Shown here: one piece after another, positions 15,790-52,893 of the stretch
Numbering within the stretch: position 1 is the stretch's first letter
Layout of the letters: each line of letters begins with the position of its first letter
Source: a virus
Virus record (IMG/VR): IMGVR_UViG_3300010413_002075
Location: 1 to 62,779 of that record
Direction: 5' to 3' (one strand)
Length of the DNA stretch: 62,779 bases
Translations under genes and position numbers: made by a program
Notes under the pieces: model-generated
Seen by the model: the letters and a program-made list of their open reading frames with translations, nothing else
Told to the model about the DNA's origin: nothing
The model's database searches: none

Positions 15790-16809
15790 TTAAGACCCGA
15801 TGCCTTTAAGCTGTTCTAACAGTTTTTTCTCCTCCTCTGATATTTTTGTAGGCATACTGACCTTAATGGTAACCAAATGATCGCCTTTCCTAGCACCTTG
15901 AGCCACACCTTTGCCTGTTAATTTTAATACACTGCTTGGTTGAGTTCCCTGTGGAACTGTTAGCTTTACTGTTCCTTGTACTGTACCAACCGAAATTTTT
16001 GTGCCAAGAATAGCGTCTATGTAGCTAACAGTTTCTTCTGACATTACAGTTAACCCACTTCGCTTAAACTTGGGATGTGGCCTAATTTCAATTGATAAGT
16101 ACAAGTCTCCATTGGCTGCGCCATATGGACTAGGCATTCCTTTGCCAGAAACGCGCATAATGGTACCATTTTCTATTCCTGCTGGAATAGTGACTTTAAT
16201 AACTTCATTTCTAATTGTATTACCGCTTCCAGAACACACTGGGCATTTTTCTTTAATATGATTTCCGGTGCCTCGACATTCTGGACAAGTTCTTAATACT
16301 TGCATAAATCCTTGATTATATCCTACTTTGCCCATGCCATTACATTGTTTACATGGCTCTATATTTTTGCCATTTTTGGAACCATTACCTTGACACGCTG
16401 AGCATTCCTGAGGATAATCTATAGACAATTTTTTGACACAACCTTTAACGGCTTCCATAAAATCTATGTTAAGCCCATGGCGTAGGTCATCTCCACGGGT
16501 AGGTTGTCTGCGGCGACCACCAAAGATATCGTCGAATCCAAATCCAAAACCTGCATTTCGCATGTGTTCAAATGGATCCCTTCCAGGTGGTTGCTGTCTA
16601 ACATCACCATACATGTCATACTGTTGTCGTTTTTCTGAATCGCTTAAAAGCTCATAGGCTGAGGATATATCCTTGAATTTGCTTTCCGCATCAGGATTAT
16701 CTGGATTCTTGTCTGGATGGTATTGCAGGGCAAGTTTTCTATATGCCTTTTTGATTTCCTCGGCCGTAGCTTCTTTTTTAACACCGAGCACATCATAAGG
16801 ATTTTTCAT
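15790..16809 (-). CDS. dnaJ: DnaJ co-chaperone
   Basis: 339 aa, a complete type I DnaJ: J domain with HPD at 31-33, Gly/Phe region ([14 protein letters not shown]), four CxxCxGxG zinc repeats beginning CSACQGNG, and the C-terminal substrate-binding beta domains. It is slightly shorter than E. coli DnaJ (376 aa). It stimulates DnaK ATPase; no DnaK is in this window, so it may act with host DnaK on replication complexes or virion proteins. It overlaps ruvC by 4 bases. Confidence 0.95.
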
Positions 16810-23329: not shown

Positions 23330-23545
23330 TTACTTCACAAATACAGAAAGGCCAACATCCACGTCCCCAGTTTGATGGGATAATAGTGCCTTTAGCACAT
23401 CTCCCATATCATAATTGCCTGCGGTAATGGTATCAACGTCAGCCTCCAAAACCAACTTGACCCTTTCTGAATCTTTCGTCTTCTTTACCTGAAAGGTTGC
23501 TACCTTAAACCCTGTTACTGATTGCTTTGTTGCTTCTGTCGACAT
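23330..23545 (-). CDS. Small hypothetical protein after trigger factor
   Basis: 71 aa from the ATG at 23545, preceded by GAGGA. Sequence pattern suggests a compact beta fold (GFKVATFQVKKTKDSERVKL ... VDVGLSVFVK). It overlaps the end of the trigger factor gene by 41 bases in another frame and is followed directly by a terminator. Function unknown. Confidence 0.6.
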   Translation of the reverse strand: MSTEATKQSVTGFKVATFQVKKTKDSERVKLVLEADVDTITAGNYDMGDVLKALLSHQTGDVDVGLSVFVK

Positions 23546-24824
23546 CTTCTTCCTCACTTTCCTGATTAGCATGGTCGATTATAAAATCTATGGTACTTGA
23601 CGTTTTCAAGACTCCCATAAAATTATCCATTTGTCCTGAGTTATACAAATTACTAACTAATTCATCTTTTGACATGTTGTTCTTTGCAGCATGTTCATTA
23701 AGCAATTTATTTAATTCTTCAGGAGTTACTTCTATAGCTTCTTCTTTTTCATAAATGGCATCTAATATTATTGCTCTCTTAACATTTTTCTCAGCTGCTT
23801 CAAGCAATGCATCCCTGCCTTGTTGTGGTAAATTTTGCAATTTATTCTTACCTAACATTCTCAACATTTCTTTTTCAACCATAGACTTAGGAGCTTCGAA
23901 CGAATTAAGCTCTAATAGTTTAGCTGTAATTTGGCCATCTAAAAGGAATCTGTCATGCAATCTGCGCTCTTTAGATGTTTCGGCTCTAACATGATTTTCT
24001 AATTCTTCTACAGACTCATAACCAACCATCATTGCTAAATCTTCATTGACTTCCGCCAATTTAGTTTCTACTATACTGTGTACAGTAATAGCAAACTTAG
24101 CTTCTTTTCCGGCCAAATGACTCGCTCTATATTCTTTTGGAAATGTGACAACAATGTTTTTATTTTCTCCAGCTTTCATGCCAACGATTTGGTCTTCGAA
24201 TCCTGGTATAAAGTTGCCTTTGCCCAAATTGTCTACAGAAAATCCTTGAGCAGCTCCTCCGTCAAATGGTTTACCATCAACATATCCTATAAAATCCATA
24301 ACTAATGAGTCGCCAAATTTAGCTCCACGATCAGTTATCTGTCTTTTTTCAGCGAATTGTTCTTGATATTTAGACATCATGGCATTAAACAATTCTTCTT
24401 CATCATGCTGTGGGAAATCTAATTGTAGATTGTCATATCCAATAGGATCAAGTTTTGGTAAAACCTCAACCGTAAAATCAACTGAATATGAGTTATCGAA
24501 TCCAAATTTACCCGGATACTCGTCTCCAGTCTTCATGTCAGAAACAATCGGATTACCTACAGGGTTTATTTCACTATCTTTGAGAGCTTTAGCGTAATAT
24601 TCTCCGATAATCATTTGTGTGACTGACGGTCTAGCTTTTTGGCCAAAAAATTGTTTGATTCTTTGTACAGGCGCCTTGCCTTTTCTGAATCCTGGAACCT
24701 GCACTTGATTTTTGATGCTGTTAAAAAATTCATCGAATTTCTTATCAACTACTTCTGACGGGACATTAATTGAAACTTTATACTCGGTTTCACTTAATGC
24801 TTCAACTTTCACTGTATCTTCCAT
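23505..24824 (-). CDS. tig: Trigger factor chaperone
   Basis: 439 aa, about the length of bacterial trigger factor. The ribosome-binding signature GFRKGKAP is at 45-52. An FKBP-type prolyl isomerase domain follows (GDSLVMDFIGYVDGKPFDGG), then the helical substrate-cradling C-domain. It binds ribosomal protein L23 and shelters nascent chains. Its presence with IF3, EF-Ts, DnaJ and tmRNA suggests takeover of translation and early folding. Confidence 0.96.
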   Translation of the reverse strand: MEDTVKVEALSETEYKVSINVPSEVVDKKFDEFFNSIKNQVQVPGFRKGKAPVQRIKQFFGQKARPSVTQMIIGEYYAKALKDSEINPVGNPIVSDMKTGDEYPGKFGFDNSYSVDFTVEVLPKLDPIGYDNLQLDFPQHDEEELFNAMMSKYQEQFAEKRQITDRGAKFGDSLVMDFIGYVDGKPFDGGAAQGFSVDNLGKGNFIPGFEDQIVGMKAGENKNIVVTFPKEYRASHLAGKEAKFAITVHSIVETKLAEVNEDLAMMVGYESVEELENHVRAETSKERRLHDRFLLDGQITAKLLELNSFEAPKSMVEKEMLRMLGKNKLQNLPQQGRDALLEAAEKNVKRAIILDAIYEKEEAIEVTPEELNKLLNEHAAKNNMSKDELVSNLYNSGQMDNFMGVLKTSSTIDFIIDHANQESEEEDVDRSNKAISNRV

Positions 24825-35515: not shown

Positions 35516-35915
35516 TGGTGGAGCCGGAGGGAATCGAACCCTCGTCCGCAAAACTTCTTACAATATCTCATATGACTATCTGCACTGAACGGTTTATTTT
35601 ATAGTCTGTCCAACTCAGCACCAAGTATTCAGACTAGGGACGTAGGCTAGCTACGCCTCCACCAGGTTGCTTTTTAAGTCATCCCAGGACCGAAGGATTA
35701 CCACCGTCATCGTCTACCTTCTGTTGCCAGGTAAGTAGAAACCCCGCTCTGTTCGCTTTTTAGGCTGCTAGAGCAACGGGCGCACTGTCCGAAAACAGAT
35801 TGCCACTGAAAAATGCTTCTTCGGCATTTAAAAAGTTGAGCCTTTTTAACGTGGCCTGCTCAACCACGAGTCATCAACATTGCCGCCCATTCCACGTCGA
35901 AACCAGTACGGCCCC
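35516..35915 (-). ncRNA. ssrA: tmRNA (trans-translation RNA)
   Basis: 400 bases. The 5' end GGGGCCG pairs with CGGCTCC before ACCA at the 3' end, leaving encoded CCA. The 5' part continues TACTGGTTTCGACGTGG and the 3' part has a T arm GAGGG-TTCGATT-CCCTC. The tag frame can be read on the minus strand from 35828 to a TAA at 35760-35762. It gives up to 22 residues beginning NAEEAFFSG and ending SAPVALAA, a typical ClpXP-type degron end; the exact resume codon is uncertain. It rescues stalled ribosomes. A phage ClpP is encoded about 3 kb away. Confidence 0.96.
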
Positions 35916-42722: not shown

Positions 42723-44252
42723 TCATTTGATTACCCGTACCATCTTCTTATCGAATTCTTCTCTAGTTGGTAGCGGAGTTTGTAAAATTTCCTCTAGCAA
42801 GTCTACTCTGCTTGGTTTAGTAAGCAAAGGTATCAGATTTGGAATAGAATAGTAATCTGCACCAGATGGTACATGAATAGCATCATATTCGATTCCTTCT
42901 GCAGCACACTCTCGCTCAAGTTTGTCACAACTCCACTTGCCGCAATTGACAAAAACAACCTTTGGCATAAAACCAAACTTCTTTTTGTAGGCACGCATTT
43001 CTTCTATAAATAATGGATTTCTATTTTCTCCTTGATCGGTTACCATTATGATTTGTTCAACCATTTGGTTGCGGCCACGCAAATGATGTATGCCGGCACC
43101 GCATGATGTGGCATTACGAGCTTTAATCATCTTCATGGCTTTTTGCCAGTCGTCAAGTGAATTGCTCACGCAAGTAATTGGTACAGCTACAACATCAGCG
43201 GCATAGCAGTAGAAATCGCCTTCAACTATTGTTGAAATCATCGCACCTATGCCTTTACCAATTTCAATTGCTTCGGTCATTGATTGCGATTTATCAATTA
43301 TTAGTGCAGTGCTACGCTTAATAGTTCCTTTGCGCTTTAATTGTTCGCTAGATATATCAACCAATTGTTTTGCAGTTTCACTGTCTACACCAGCAGTTTC
43401 AGCTGCCTTAGCGGCTTTCAACGCATCGACCTTCTTAGATTTCTTAACTTTCTTCAGCTTAATATCTACAAGAGACTTTATGTCCTTATTATCTAAAGCT
43501 CCACGCTTTTTCAAGGCGCCAAGATTTACTAGAAGCTCTTGATCTGTCATGTTATTGATCAATGCTGCTATTACTGTAGGAGTCATATTTTTTATAGCAC
43601 CCACTGCAGTAGTGTATGGTATCTTGTGTTCCACTATAAGCTTAGCTTGTTCTACTGGGTCATTTTCGCCAGCCAAAAGCTTTATTTGATACAGCTTAGA
43701 ATCTTTTGGTGGTTGATCTTCAAACAGAATGGCCTGAGCGCGTGTCACTTGACATTCTTCACCATCTACTACTACCGTAGTATCTTCGTCTTGATGAGCG
43801 CCAGGCTTTAATCTAAATGAAGAATAAAGACCTGTAAGCGCATTTCTCTGACGTGCAGCAACGGCTCCATCGAATCTAGAATCATTAAGCTCAAAATCTT
43901 TTAAATAGGTTTTGACCGCCGATTTCATTACACGAGGCGGATTCTTTTTGAATACCTTCTTAACATGATTCTTGATCTTTTCTACTTGATATGGAGGGAA
44001 ATTCTGCAAAAGAACATATCCTACTTCTCTATGTTCTGGGAATTCGCTCAATAGCAAAGTAGCAACAAACACTTCCTTGTGATCTCGAATGTCGGTATTC
44101 TCCATTGCCCATACGGCCAAATGTCCGTAGAATAATGGATCCTGATCAATCATACTCTTATGAGTTTCTACTACGCGACCAATGTCACGGTGAGTAGAAT
44201 CTAGTAACGAGTTTAAAATTTGTAATCTTACATCTTGCTCTTTGCTTGCCAT
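42723..44252 (-). CDS. Ro60/Rsr-like TROVE-vWA ring protein
   Basis: 509 aa. The N-terminal 300 residues are helical-repeat (HEAT-like) with LLVNLGALKKRGAL, as in the TROVE domain. The C-terminal vWA domain has a MIDAS: DKSQS at 320-324, NATSCGAG, and VTDQGEN. Cellular Ro60 and bacterial Rsr form rings that bind misfolded RNA 3' ends and Y RNAs and can steer exonucleases. A phage copy is unusual. AAGGAG precedes the ATG. An RNA locus with tRNA-like inserts lies about 8 kb upstream on the same strand. Confidence 0.83.
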   Translation of the reverse strand: MASKEQDVRLQILNSLLDSTHRDIGRVVETHKSMIDQDPLFYGHLAVWAMENTDIRDHKEVFVATLLLSEFPEHREVGYVLLQNFPPYQVEKIKNHVKKVFKKNPPRVMKSAVKTYLKDFELNDSRFDGAVAARQRNALTGLYSSFRLKPGAHQDEDTTVVVDGEECQVTRAQAILFEDQPPKDSKLYQIKLLAGENDPVEQAKLIVEHKIPYTTAVGAIKNMTPTVIAALINNMTDQELLVNLGALKKRGALDNKDIKSLVDIKLKKVKKSKKVDALKAAKAAETAGVDSETAKQLVDISSEQLKRKGTIKRSTALIIDKSQSMTEAIEIGKGIGAMISTIVEGDFYCYAADVVAVPITCVSNSLDDWQKAMKMIKARNATSCGAGIHHLRGRNQMVEQIIMVTDQGENRNPLFIEEMRAYKKKFGFMPKVVFVNCGKWSCDKLERECAAEGIEYDAIHVPSGADYYSIPNLIPLLTKPSRVDLLEEILQTPLPTREEFDKKMVRVIK

Positions 44253-50025: not shown

Positions 50026-50432
50026 TTGATCCCTGCCAATTCTTCTATAAGCTCTTCTTTTCTAATTTCTTCCAACTTTTTCTTTGCCTTTTGAATGGTT
50101 TTCTTATTAAGATCTATCGATCTTTTGAGTTGCTTTATATCTCTCATCAGCTTAGATTTATGTTCTGCAGGCGTAAGCTTATCTGCTTCTTCCTTAGTGT
50201 CAAATAAATCTTTTTCAGTAAGTTTGGTATCAACTCTATACCAAGCGTAAGATCCTCTTTTAGCTGGAGCTATATAATAAACCACAGTCTCTGGTTTCTT
50301 AGTATTTTTTGTTATTTCGGTTTCTACTATCACCTTTTTGATAGTAGTTTGATATCCCTTTTTATTATATTTATAATATACCTTCTGTCCTACTGAATAT
50401 TTTACTTTAGCCTTGTGGTTTATTGTCTTCAT
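50022..50432 (-). CDS. SH3/KOW-like barrel plus coiled-coil protein
   Basis: 136 aa from the ATG at 50432, preceded by GAGAGG. Barrel-like VKYSVGQKVYYKYNKKGYQT and a long Lys-rich coiled coil. It overlaps the EF-Ts stop region by 26 bases, so it is likely translated together with EF-Ts; a role at the ribosome is a guess from that coupling. Confidence 0.55.
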   Translation of the reverse strand: MKTINHKAKVKYSVGQKVYYKYNKKGYQTTIKKVIVETEITKNTKKPETVVYYIAPAKRGSYAWYRVDTKLTEKDLFDTKEEADKLTPAEHKSKLMRDIKQLKRSIDLNKKTIQKAKKKLEEIRKEELIEELAGIK

Positions 50433-51021
50433 CACCCTCTCCCACAACAAATCTCACGAATCTTTTAATAACTATTTTCTCGCTAACTTGAGCCGCCAAA
50501 TCACCTAACAAATCAGTAATAGTGATATTTGAATCTCTGACAAATAATTGATCCATCAAACAAGTTTCTTTGAAAAATTTATTTAGCTTGCCTGCCACTA
50601 TTTTATCTATTACTTGTGGAGGCTTACCTTCCAAAGATGCAGCCATAATTTCTTTTTCTTGATCGATTATTTTTTGCGGAACCTCGTCTCTGGTTATCCA
50701 TCTAGGATTAGTAGCCGCAATATGCATAGCTACTTCTTTAGCAAACTTTTGGAATGCCTCGCCCTTAGCTACAAAATCGGTTTCACAATTGATCTCTACC
50801 ATAACACCTATTTTGCCTCCAGCATGAATATAATATCCAACTGTGCCTTCGGAAGCAGTCTTACTGGCTCGATTGCTAATGTCGGACAGACCTTTCTTGC
50901 GCAAATGGATAATTGCTTGTTCTACATTTCCATTACTAGCAGTTAGTGCCTCTTTGCAGTCCATCATTCCTGCGCCAGTTTTTTCCCTGAGTTCTTTAAT
51001 CTGTTGCAGCGTCACGCTCAT
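50407..51021 (-). CDS. tsf: Elongation factor Ts
   Basis: 204 aa, the short EF-Ts type (Thermus 196 aa). UBA-like N-terminus LREKTGAGMMDCKEAL, then VEINCETDFVAKGEAF, the EF-Tu contact motif TDFV. It exchanges GDP on EF-Tu, and would act on host or phage EF-Tu (none in this window). AAGGAG precedes the ATG. It also forms part of some RNA phage replicases, but here a translation role is the simple reading. Confidence 0.95.
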   Translation of the reverse strand: MSVTLQQIKELREKTGAGMMDCKEALTASNGNVEQAIIHLRKKGLSDISNRASKTASEGTVGYYIHAGGKIGVMVEINCETDFVAKGEAFQKFAKEVAMHIAATNPRWITRDEVPQKIIDQEKEIMAASLEGKPPQVIDKIVAGKLNKFFKETCLMDQLFVRDSNITITDLLGDLAAQVSEKIVIKRFVRFVVGEGDEDNKPQG

Positions 51022-51874: not shown

Positions 51875-51952
51875 TGGCTCCAAGGGGCGTCTGGAATTCA
51901 CCGACCTCCCAGCCGAAACTGGGCGCTCTTAATCCGTCTGAGCTACCTCGGA
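51875..51952 (-). tRNA. tRNA-like gene 1, identity not assigned
   Basis: 78 bases with encoded CCA. Acceptor TCCGAGG pairs with CCTTGGA, then TA, D arm GCTC/GAGC with GG in the loop, and an AGGTC variable region. The anticodon arm does not close normally: CCCAGT-TTCG-GCTGGG forms a 6-bp hairpin with a UUCG tetraloop, or a 5-bp stem with a 6-base loop. The T arm lacks the TTCRA loop. It may be a pseudo-tRNA or decoy. Reads such as TCG or TTC for the anticodon are possible but unproven. Confidence 0.5.
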
Positions 51953-51955
51953 ATA

Positions 51956-52038
51956 TGGTGCCAAGAAGTGTCTGGTGAACACTGACCTCCAAGTCCTCAA
52001 TAGGACTGGCGTTCCTAAACCATCTGAACTATCTCGGC
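51956..52038 (-). tRNA. tRNA-like gene 2, identity not assigned
   Basis: 83 bases, encoded CCA. Acceptor GCCGAGA/TCTTGGC is fully paired and the D arm GTTC/GAAC has GG. The central arm AGTCCT-ATTG-AGGACT is a 6-bp hairpin with a 4-base loop, not a 7-base anticodon loop. T-like arm AGTGT/ACACT has loop TCACCAG. Spaced 3 bases from its neighbours. Confidence 0.5.
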
Positions 52039-52041
52039 GTA

Positions 52042-52134
52042 TGGTGCAGGGGCAGACTTACGAGGACTGCATCTCCGACTAGGCTCAGGCTGATGAACCT
52101 AGAAGGTATTCTTTAGCGTACTGAACTACCCTGC
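52042..52134 (-). tRNA. tRNA-like gene 3, identity not assigned
   Basis: 93 bases, encoded CCA. Acceptor GCAGGG/CCCTGC (6 bp), D stem GTTC/GAAT. The central arm can form a 9-bp stem CTAGGTTCA/TGAGCCTAG with a 6-base loop. A CAT triplet lies in an alternative fold, so tRNA-Met/Ile(CAT) is not excluded. T arm GCAGTC-CTCGTAA-GTCTGC has an unusual loop. Length would suit a class II tRNA but the fold does not match one. Confidence 0.45.
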
Positions 52135-52215: not shown

Positions 52216-52353
52216 TTTGCCATCCGATTTTTATAAGCTGTTTTGTTGTCACATCATGCAGGAATCGAACCTGCTACCCTTAGAATCCAAATCTAATGCT
52301 CTACCTAATGAGCTAAAAATGTATGTACGCTTACAACGTCAGAAGACGGCAAA
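52216..52353 (-). ncRNA. RNA cassette D: paired flanks enclosing tRNA-Pro-like module
   Basis: The flanks TTTGCCGTC (52345-52353) and GATGGCAAA (52216-52224) pair (9 bp, one wobble), and inside them TTGTAAGC (52329-52336) pairs with GCTTATAA (52231-52238). Next come TACATAC before the insert and ACA after it, as in the other three cassettes. The insert is a tRNA-like module in normal order. Confidence 0.75.
52250..52322 (-). tRNA. tRNA-Pro (TGG)-like module, no encoded CCA
   Basis: 73 bases inside cassette D. D arm GCTC/GAGC; anticodon arm TTAGA-TTTGGAT-TCTAA with anticodon TGG (codon CCA); T arm GCAGG-TTCGATT-CCTGC. The acceptor ACATTTT/ATGATGT is weak with one mismatch and uses part of the conserved TACATAC. 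CCA is not encoded; the 3' flank continues GACAACAAAACAGC. It may be a processed tRNA, or a tRNA mimic in a longer RNA. Confidence 0.7.
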
Positions 52354-52368
52354 ACTTATATGTGTGTA

Positions 52369-52492
52369 GTCTGTCCGATTATTAAAAGCTGTCTAATAAC
52401 TCTGCTGGAGTCGAACCAGCTCCTCAAATGTGGAAAATTTGCGTCAAACCAATTGACAAAAGTATGTAAGCTTCCAAGGTCTGAGGACAGAC
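52369..52492 (-). ncRNA. RNA cassette C: paired flanks enclosing tRNA-Gly-like module
   Basis: Outer stem GTCTGTCC (52485-52492) with GGACAGAC (52369-52376), 8 perfect pairs; inner stem TTGGAAGC (52470-52477) with GCTTTTAA (52382-52389) including two wobbles. The conserved TACATAC and ACA border the insert. The outer stem sequence differs from the other cassettes but pairing is kept. Confidence 0.77.
52397..52465 (-). tRNA. tRNA-Gly (TCC)-like module, no encoded CCA
   Basis: Inside cassette C. D arm GTCA/TGAC, anticodon arm CAAAT-TTTCCAC-ATTTG (anticodon TCC, codon GGA), T arm GCTGG-TTCGACT-CCAGC. The acceptor is short: ACTTT/AGAGT gives 5 pairs, and outer positions mismatch. No CCA. The good arms but poor acceptor fit a tRNA-like domain at least as well as a working tRNA. 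Confidence 0.65.
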
Positions 52493-52507
52493 AATTCTAA
52501 TCATTTT

Positions 52508-52590
52508 TGTGGGGTCACCCGCATATCTCAGGGAAAGGAGGCGTGAGCTATGAACAATAAGAGACATGTTCAAGTTGCGCGACTGACCCC
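52508..52590 (-). ncRNA. Structured RNA with tRNA-like closing stem
   Basis: GGGGTCA at 52584-52590 pairs perfectly with TGACCCC at 52511-52517, followed by ACA. Inside, CGCA/TGCG lengthens the stem, and two hairpins (TGAACA/TGTTCA; CTCA/TGAG) branch off. Spacing suits an acceptor stem, but no D, anticodon or T arm is recognisable. Candidate small RNA or decayed tRNA between cassettes B and C. Confidence 0.45.
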
Positions 52591-52593
52591 AAA

Positions 52594-52753
52594 TTTTACC
52601 ACTCGATTCATCAAAGCTGTTTTCTCTCTTTGAGACTGTTTATAACACAGTTGCCTTTTCCAGTTTGGCTACTCGCCCATAAAAATTGGTGGGCGAGGAT
52701 GGATTCGAACCACCATTAAAGTATGTAAGCTTCCAAAATAAGAGAGCGGTAAA
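52594..52753 (-). ncRNA. RNA cassette B: paired flanks enclosing permuted tRNA
   Basis: Outer stem TTTTACCGCTC (52743-52753) with GAGTGGTAAAA (52594-52604), 11 pairs with one wobble; inner GAAGC (52729-52733) with GCTTT (52613-52617), 5 pairs including one wobble. TACATAC and ACA border the insert as in cassettes A, C and D. Here the flanks meet at the variable loop of the tRNA rather than at the acceptor. Confidence 0.77.
52635..52714 (-). tRNA. Circularly permuted tRNA, probably Ile (TAT)
   Basis: In transcript order the 3' half comes first: T arm GGTGG-TTCGAAT-CCATC (52698-52714), acceptor CTCGCCC (52691-52697), then ACCA ending at 52687. An 8-base linker (52679-52686) follows, then the 5' half: acceptor GGGCGAG (52672-52678), TA, D arm GCC/GGC with GG in the loop, and anticodon arm ACTGT-GTTATAA-ACAGT (52635-52651, anticodon TAT). 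The acceptor halves pair perfectly. The joining point is the variable loop. A CTC-AAA-GAG mini-stem follows the anticodon arm. Confidence 0.8.
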
Positions 52754-52778
52754 AACTTTTATTCCTTTCAAAATATTT

Positions 52779-52850
52779 GCGTCTAATTTATTAAAGCTGT
52801 TTATGCCTATTCAACTCATGGGTATGTAAGCTTTAAAAGTCAGATGACGC
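52779..52850 (-). ncRNA. RNA cassette A: paired flanks with short non-tRNA insert
   Basis: Outer stem GCGTC (52846-52850) with GACGC (52779-52783), inner TTAAAGC (52830-52836) with GCTTTAA (52791-52797), and the same TACATAC and ACA borders. The insert is only 21 bases (CCATGAGTTGAATAGGCATAA) and holds no tRNA. It is the first element after the promoter. Confidence 0.65.
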
Positions 52851-52865
52851 CTTTTTCTATGTTCT

Positions 52866-52893
52866 ATTATACGCTTTCTGCGACAAATGTCAA
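52866..52893 (-). promoter_or_regulatory. Consensus sigma-70 promoter of the RNA locus
   Basis: Minus strand TTGACA (52888-52893), 16-base spacer, TATAAT (52866-52871), perfect consensus. It lies between the small membrane protein gene and cassette A and should drive the whole RNA locus to the terminator at 51828-51866. Confidence 0.92.

Follow-up and report, generated by a model that had tools for sequence, protein, structure and literature searches.

Four tandem phage RNA cassettes with covarying stems and differing tRNA-like inserts resemble Y RNAs

Y RNAs work together with proteins of the Ro60 type. The Ro proteins known so far dock on the stem of their Y RNA, and the Y RNA of Deinococcus links Ro to PNPase as a tether. 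The YrlA-type Y RNAs (RF02553), which are found in Salmonella and mycobacteriophages, have paired ends that form an outer stem, followed by an asymmetric loop, an inner stem, and a distal tRNA-like module. The tRNA-like module of Salmonella YrlA has been proposed to be a competitor of an anticodon nuclease (PMC7790460). Mycobacteriophages are described as carriers of Y RNAs in a passage of PMC12282133 that cites Chen et al. 2014, and a few jumbo phages are known to have a TROVE protein (PMC7824862). Here we describe an array of four RNA cassettes, A to D, in a phage fragment of 62,779 nt (the window) that encodes DnaE, RecA, trigger factor, DnaJ, and EF-Ts, plus a tmRNA.

The four cassettes are read on the minus strand from 52850 to 52216, in the order proposed in an earlier note on this DNA. 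They follow a single plan, which consists of an outer stem, an asymmetric internal loop, an inner stem ending in AAGC, (U/G)UACAUAC, the insert, ACA, the GCUU side of the inner stem, the loop, and the outer stem. The features used below, in window coordinates, are as follows.

52866 to 52893, minus strand: sigma-70 type promoter, with TTGACA at 52893-52888, a 16-nt spacer, and TATAAT at 52871-52866
52779 to 52850, minus strand: cassette A, with outer stem 52850-52846/52783-52779, inner stem, UACAUAC, and a 21-nt loop without a tRNA
52594 to 52754, minus strand: cassette B, with outer stem 52754-52744/52604-52594 and a circularly permuted tRNA
52714 to 52698, minus strand: T-arm of B
52697 to 52672, minus strand: acceptor hairpin of B, with CCA
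52669 to 52653, minus strand: D-arm of B
52651 to 52635, minus strand: anticodon arm of B, loop GUUAUAA
52502 to 52592, minus strand: structured RNA between B and C, with an 8-bp GGGGUCA/UGACCCC closing stem and inner hairpins
52369 to 52492, minus strand: cassette C, with outer stem 52492-52485/52376-52369 and an unpermuted tRNA-Gly(UCC)-like insert whose acceptor stem is degenerate
52216 to 52353, minus strand: cassette D, with outer stem 52353-52344/52225-52216 and an unpermuted tRNA-Pro(UGG)-like insert
52211 to 52138, minus strand: Leu-like tRNA-like RNA with a CCA end, no flanking scaffold
52134 to 52042, minus strand: t2, tRNA-like with a CCA end, no scaffold, a 9-bp stem and 6-nt loop as anticodon arm
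52038 to 51956, minus strand: t3, tRNA-like with a CCA end, no scaffold, a closed anticodon hairpin with an AUUG loop
51952 to 51875, minus strand: t4, tRNA-like with a CCA end, no scaffold, an anticodon hairpin with a UUCG tetraloop
51832 to 51864, minus strand: terminator hairpin closing the RNA array
42723 to 44252, minus strand: candidate Ro-like protein, 509 aa, PHROG 850, E=2.6e-4

The outer stems are GCGUC/GACGC in A (5 bp), UUUUACCGCUC/GAGUGGUAAAA in B (11 bp), GUCUGUCC/GGACAGAC in C (8 bp), and UUUGCCGUCU/GGAUGGCAAA in D (10 bp including the last U-G pair, 9 bp without it); stems of 5, 11, 8, and 9 bp had been claimed, and each of them pairs. As an unbiased test of covariation in the window, the own flanks of A to D were compared with foreign flanks and with shuffles. 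At a fixed register, the own flanks of A, B, C, and D pair over 5, 11, 8, and 10 bp, respectively, whereas foreign flank combinations pair over 2-6 bp. The shuffle p values for flank pairing are 0.0004 for B, 0.002 for C, 0.001 for D, and 0.021 for A, whose stem is short and, taken alone, weakly significant, and the summed pairing of the four cassettes was reached in 0 of 20,000 shuffles. These results bear out the compensatory change that the earlier note had proposed, while its description of the outer stems as unrelated does not hold for B and D, which are an A-U to G-C double change apart (UUUUACC/GGUAAAA vs UUUGCC/GGCAAA). The inner stem also covaries, with pair 5 being A-U, G-U, G-U, and U-A and pair 6 being U-A, a mismatch, G-U, and G-U across the four cassettes. 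The internal loop is conserved among A to D and reads UCWKAY in its 5' strand and NAAUY in its 3' strand. As an outside control, 78 tRNAs called by ARAGORN in 14 phage sequence stretches were scored for leader-trailer duplex energy relative to shuffles; D ranks first and C second in complementarity (z -5.1 and -4.3), and the tRNA-Leu of the window, which has no cassette, ranks 70 of 78.

The inserts, of 21 to 100 nt, cannot be aligned with one another, and those of A to D differ as had been described, from no tRNA in A to a permuted, a tRNA-Gly-like, and a tRNA-Pro-like insert. The insert of B is a complete permuted tRNA in the order T-arm, acceptor with an encoded CCA, short loop, 5' acceptor strand, D-arm, and anticodon arm. 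The tRNA-Gly(UCC)-like insert of C has an acceptor of 5 bp and a short 8-9 linker. The tRNA-Pro(UGG)-like insert of D scores 62 bits, with a U-U mismatch in the acceptor and with A37 and G73, which differ from tRNA-Pro; its nearest sequence is a phage tRNA-Lys (Aeromonas phage). Judged by a 7-bp acceptor stem, U8, and a proper discriminator and position 37, neither C nor D qualifies as a functional tRNA, and their degenerate acceptor ends fit RNAs that keep the tRNA body and for which charging is no longer needed.

Both the -35 and the -10 box of the promoter are exact consensus, and the promoter lies about 15 nt upstream of cassette A. The structured RNA at 52502-52592 contains no recognisable tRNA and belongs to no known class. 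Downstream of D, t2, t3, and t4 have no 7-nt anticodon loop and their T-loops are not canonical; no relatives of this stretch (51875-52134) were found among GenBank phages, where the array DNA shows ordinary tRNA similarity only. The gene for EF-Ts (50407-51021, minus strand) adjoins the array, and those for trigger factor and DnaJ lie at 23505-24824 and 15790-16809. The window also has a one-piece tmRNA (35516-35915, minus strand; tag AEEAFFSGNLFSDSAPVALAA), which is missing from a close relative, G002.

In G002, whose RecA is 87% identical, neither the array nor the tmRNA nor the 41-44 kb block is present. In a second relative, G007 (L053 7153-7265), the same neighbours are present and the array site is 70 nt with a small GGCG..CGCC hairpin, followed by the same terminator. 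No tRNA was found in the 105 kb of G010. From these comparisons, the array is most simply read as an insertion in the lineage of the window.

The same design is present in other phages, in two cases together with Ro-like genes. Phage G005 has four cassettes, of which two are small, one holds an unpermuted tRNA-His(AUG)-like insert, and one has an anticodon-arm/T-arm/acceptor arrangement; their outer stems are GACAC/GUGUC (twice), GGCAC/GUGCC, and GACGC/GCGUC, and they have a common ACAGCA loop. Between these cassettes lies the gene of a Ro-like protein with DUF2828, DUF7788, and vWA domains (PHROG 850, E=2e-148), which came to light through DNA similarity to gene 54 of Mycobacterium phage Lolly9, a gene annotated as Ro-like. 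In the complete genome of Lolly9, three cassettes with the ACAGCA loop and the outer stems GGACAC/GUGUCC, GGACCCC/GGGGUCC, and GGACGG/CCGUCC lie directly 3' of the Ro-like gene, and one of them holds a permuted tRNA. The permuted-tRNA form is also present in phage G006. Cassettes without a tRNA (A in the window, two in G005, and two in Lolly9) thus recur in three phages, which speaks for a role of the stem itself, and the recurrence in unrelated phages supports the proposal of a reusable RNA module under structural selection. When the window, G005, G006, and Lolly9 are taken together (12 scaffolds), the innermost outer-stem positions are paired in 60 of 60 cases (permutation mean 37.5; 0 of 200,000 permutations), a figure that describes the variety of pairing sequences and is not an unbiased test, because the scaffolds were chosen for paired outer stems. 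In the actinophages Trina and Cashline, which have a classical TROVE Ro protein, the RNAs adjoining the Ro gene consist of an outer stem, an asymmetric loop, an inner stem, and a permuted tRNA, and the 3' loop of the actinophage Y RNA is CAACAUG.

G005 and G006 surfaced by luck from a loose tRNA-pattern scan that otherwise gave mostly chance matches. Exact-pattern scans of viral contigs for the window motif gave coding-sequence or chance matches only, and a genome scan for the motif gave two matches, neither with paired flanks. Several other RNAs were observed in these sequences. In G008, a 340-kb huge phage with EF-Ts, a tRNA-His(AUG)-like RNA at 58.1 kb (L082 18145-18219, and L083) sits in a 9-bp outer stem plus an inner stem. 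A tRNA-Asn(GUU) at L042 4560-4682 has an insertion of about 48 nt between the D-arm and the anticodon arm, and this insertion contains GGAUACWUACAGCAA, which is also present in a permuted RNA just downstream. In Rhodococcus phage Trina (L108 1643-1851), an annotated tRNA-OTHER pseudogene falls in a stretch that can be read as further Y RNA-like elements, one of which has an encoded CCA and the CAACAUG motif.

The stems could be processing stalks: leader and trailer would form an interrupted duplex of about 22 bp around each tRNA, this duplex would be cut by RNase III or an enzyme like it, and RNase P plus trimming would free working tRNAs for A-ending codons. The total stem length and the internal loop resemble those of RNase III substrates, the anticodons UCC, UGG, UAU, and UAA fit the phage codons GGA (0.38), CCA (0.60), AUA (0.41), and UUA (0.34), and leader-trailer pairing is present in some other phage tRNAs. 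However, A and two cassettes each of G005 and Lolly9 have no tRNA, cutting alone cannot turn B into a tRNA, C has a 5-bp acceptor and is missing the normal 8-9 linker, A37 and G73 of D are unlike tRNA-Pro, and the loop sequences are conserved, which stalks have no need of. We regard this explanation as unlikely. The earlier note had spoken of a reusable RNA module or processing element; the module stands, and the processing element is the weaker reading because some cassettes are empty and because the inserts, although shaped like tRNAs, are poor ones.

The array had also been said to match no named class. Its architecture matches that of the Y RNAs, since the paired ends form an outer helix, an internal loop, and an inner helix, and so does its company, with a Ro-like gene in G005 and Lolly9 and a candidate in the window. 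We consider it probable that the cassettes are Y-RNA-like RNAs with a Ro-like partner. They are named Y-RNA-like and not YrlA because the known Ro-site sequences and a TROVE partner are absent from the window and the Rfam score is below the cut-off and unspecific. Cassette B scores 27.8 bits against the Rfam YrlA model RF02553, with a gathering cut-off of 69, and phage RNAs beside Ro genes score 29-42 bits; the boundary of two ordinary tandem tRNAs reaches 25 bits, nearly as high, and the covariance score was therefore dropped as proof. The known Ro-site sequences (AUGCU/ACUUG of YrlA and CAACAUG of the actinophages) are absent from the window loops. The permuted module of YrlA (T-arm, acceptor hairpin, D-arm) is found in B and not in A, C, or D, with C and D being unpermuted. 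The Rfam scan gave no match to small self-cleaving ribozymes or to any other named class except tRNA.

Sequence features of the 509-aa product of 42723-44252 suggest that it may be the Ro-like protein of the window. Its N-terminal part is helical and its C-terminal part is vWA-like, with the motifs DKSQS and TDQGE, and in a direct hmmscan the protein matches PHROG 850 over the collinear vWA region, a region common in other proteins. The protein was not picked up in a whole-record PHROG 850 search, pairwise profile tests against the G005 and Lolly9 proteins gave no match, structure searches gave no support, and no TROVE (PF05731), DUF2828, or DUF7788 domain was detected in the 62.8-kb window. 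Its single-sequence structure model is poor (pLDDT 44); modelling of this kind gave nothing usable for either Ro-like protein. G002, which is without the array, is also without this gene. A 631-aa vWA protein is encoded at 59.6-61.5 kb in G008, about 1.4 kb after the stem-borne tRNA-His. Its alignment to the window protein spans 318 columns at 24% and scores 27.7 bits, hardly more than shuffles (26.6 bits), and its possible relationship to the window protein is only a lead.

In the mechanism that we propose, the four cassettes would be Y-RNA-type non-coding RNAs, and the single strong promoter would give a transcript of about 1 kb that carries A to D and ends at the terminator. By analogy, a Ro-like ring protein, most likely the one that the phage itself encodes at 42723-44252, would dock on the two-helix stem with its conserved internal loop. 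The insert would be the working part, an exchangeable effector module that is absent in A, a permuted tRNA in B, and a whole tRNA held by its acceptor end in C and D. The Ro-like protein would bind and protect the stems and present the tRNA-like modules to nucleases or to enzymes that handle tRNA, and the displayed modules might serve as a tether or decoy, steering RNA decay or tRNA repair in infection. Any specific job of the modules is suggested with much less confidence than the Y-RNA-like assignment itself.

The modules might also be decoys for tRNA-cutting or tRNA-sensing host defences, with the stems only capping and stabilising them and with no Ro-like partner. The inserts of C and D, as well as t2-t4, are tRNA-shaped but translation-poor, the closing stems are stable and the promoter is strong, and competition between YrlA and an anticodon nuclease has been suggested in Salmonella (PMC7790460). 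The conserved loop and the Ro-like genes beside the G005 and Lolly9 cassettes, however, call for a protein partner, and the empty cassettes carry no bait, and we consider decoys of this kind improbable; a decoy role as the job of the module is compatible with the Y-RNA-like reading.

Cassette B, which has all tRNA arms, an encoded CCA, and a short spacer before the 5' acceptor strand, could be a permuted tRNA gene as in red algae and some archaea, with its ends ligated at the stem and a cut beside the CCA, but non-permuted and empty inserts sit in the same stem, a long variable region would remain after excision, and the searches made turned up no splicing endonuclease; such a gene is very improbable here. 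The array could hardly be a graveyard in which tandem tRNA duplication and decay mimic permutation and the stems arose as a by-product. The junction of two neighbouring tRNA genes can indeed resemble a permuted tRNA (about 25 bits with YrlA), but both stems covary, the loops are conserved, and the same plan is found in unrelated phages, so that the covariation already disfavours this reading.

Returning to the Y-RNA-like reading, a broader proposal, which we see as evenly balanced, is that phages pair a Ro-like protein with modular Y RNAs whose module may be nothing, a permuted tRNA, or a complete normal-order tRNA, and that several Ro-site types evolved with different Ro-like lineages, including an unnamed one in huge phages (the window and perhaps G008). 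The three kinds of module on one stem and their recurrence beside Ro-like genes provide natural module-swap experiments, through which it becomes testable whether the stem binds the Ro-like protein and whether the module chooses the target, as bears on the role of bacterial Y RNAs and of the tRNA-like module in them. If true, the proposal would widen the Y RNAs to include complete unpermuted tRNAs as modules and Ro-like proteins of the DUF2828 type as partners, and it would suggest that translation is not the purpose of some phage 'tRNAs' with odd anticodons.

Compared with known systems, tRNA leader-trailer stalks and RNase III sites share with the cassettes the paired ends around a tRNA and about two helical turns, but the window has a conserved internal loop and empty and permuted inserts. 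The Y RNAs of Trina and Cashline share the succession of outer stem, loop, and inner stem, as well as a UUA-type linker, a permuted tRNA, and an A-rich 3' linker; they differ in the CAACAUG 3' loop, in inserts that are seen permuted only, and in having no anticodon arm. The cassettes of Lolly9 and G005 are alike in their variable, pairing outer stems, in the conserved loop, in being several per phage, and in inserts from none to permuted, with an unpermuted tRNA in G005. Their 5' loop is ACAGCA and not UCWKAY, and their Ro-like protein belongs clearly to DUF2828/PHROG 850, whereas that of the window does so only marginally. The YrlA-type Y RNAs share the paired-end outer stem, the asymmetric loop, the inner stem, and the distal tRNA-like module, and the permuted order of T-arm, acceptor, and D-arm is common to YrlA and cassette B. 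In contrast to YrlA, the window has another loop sequence and no TROVE protein, B retains an anticodon arm, and the tRNA in C and in D is whole, normally ordered, and joined at its acceptor end. According to the accessible literature, a whole unpermuted tRNA in the module position (C, D, and cassette G005-3) looks new and goes beyond the described type.
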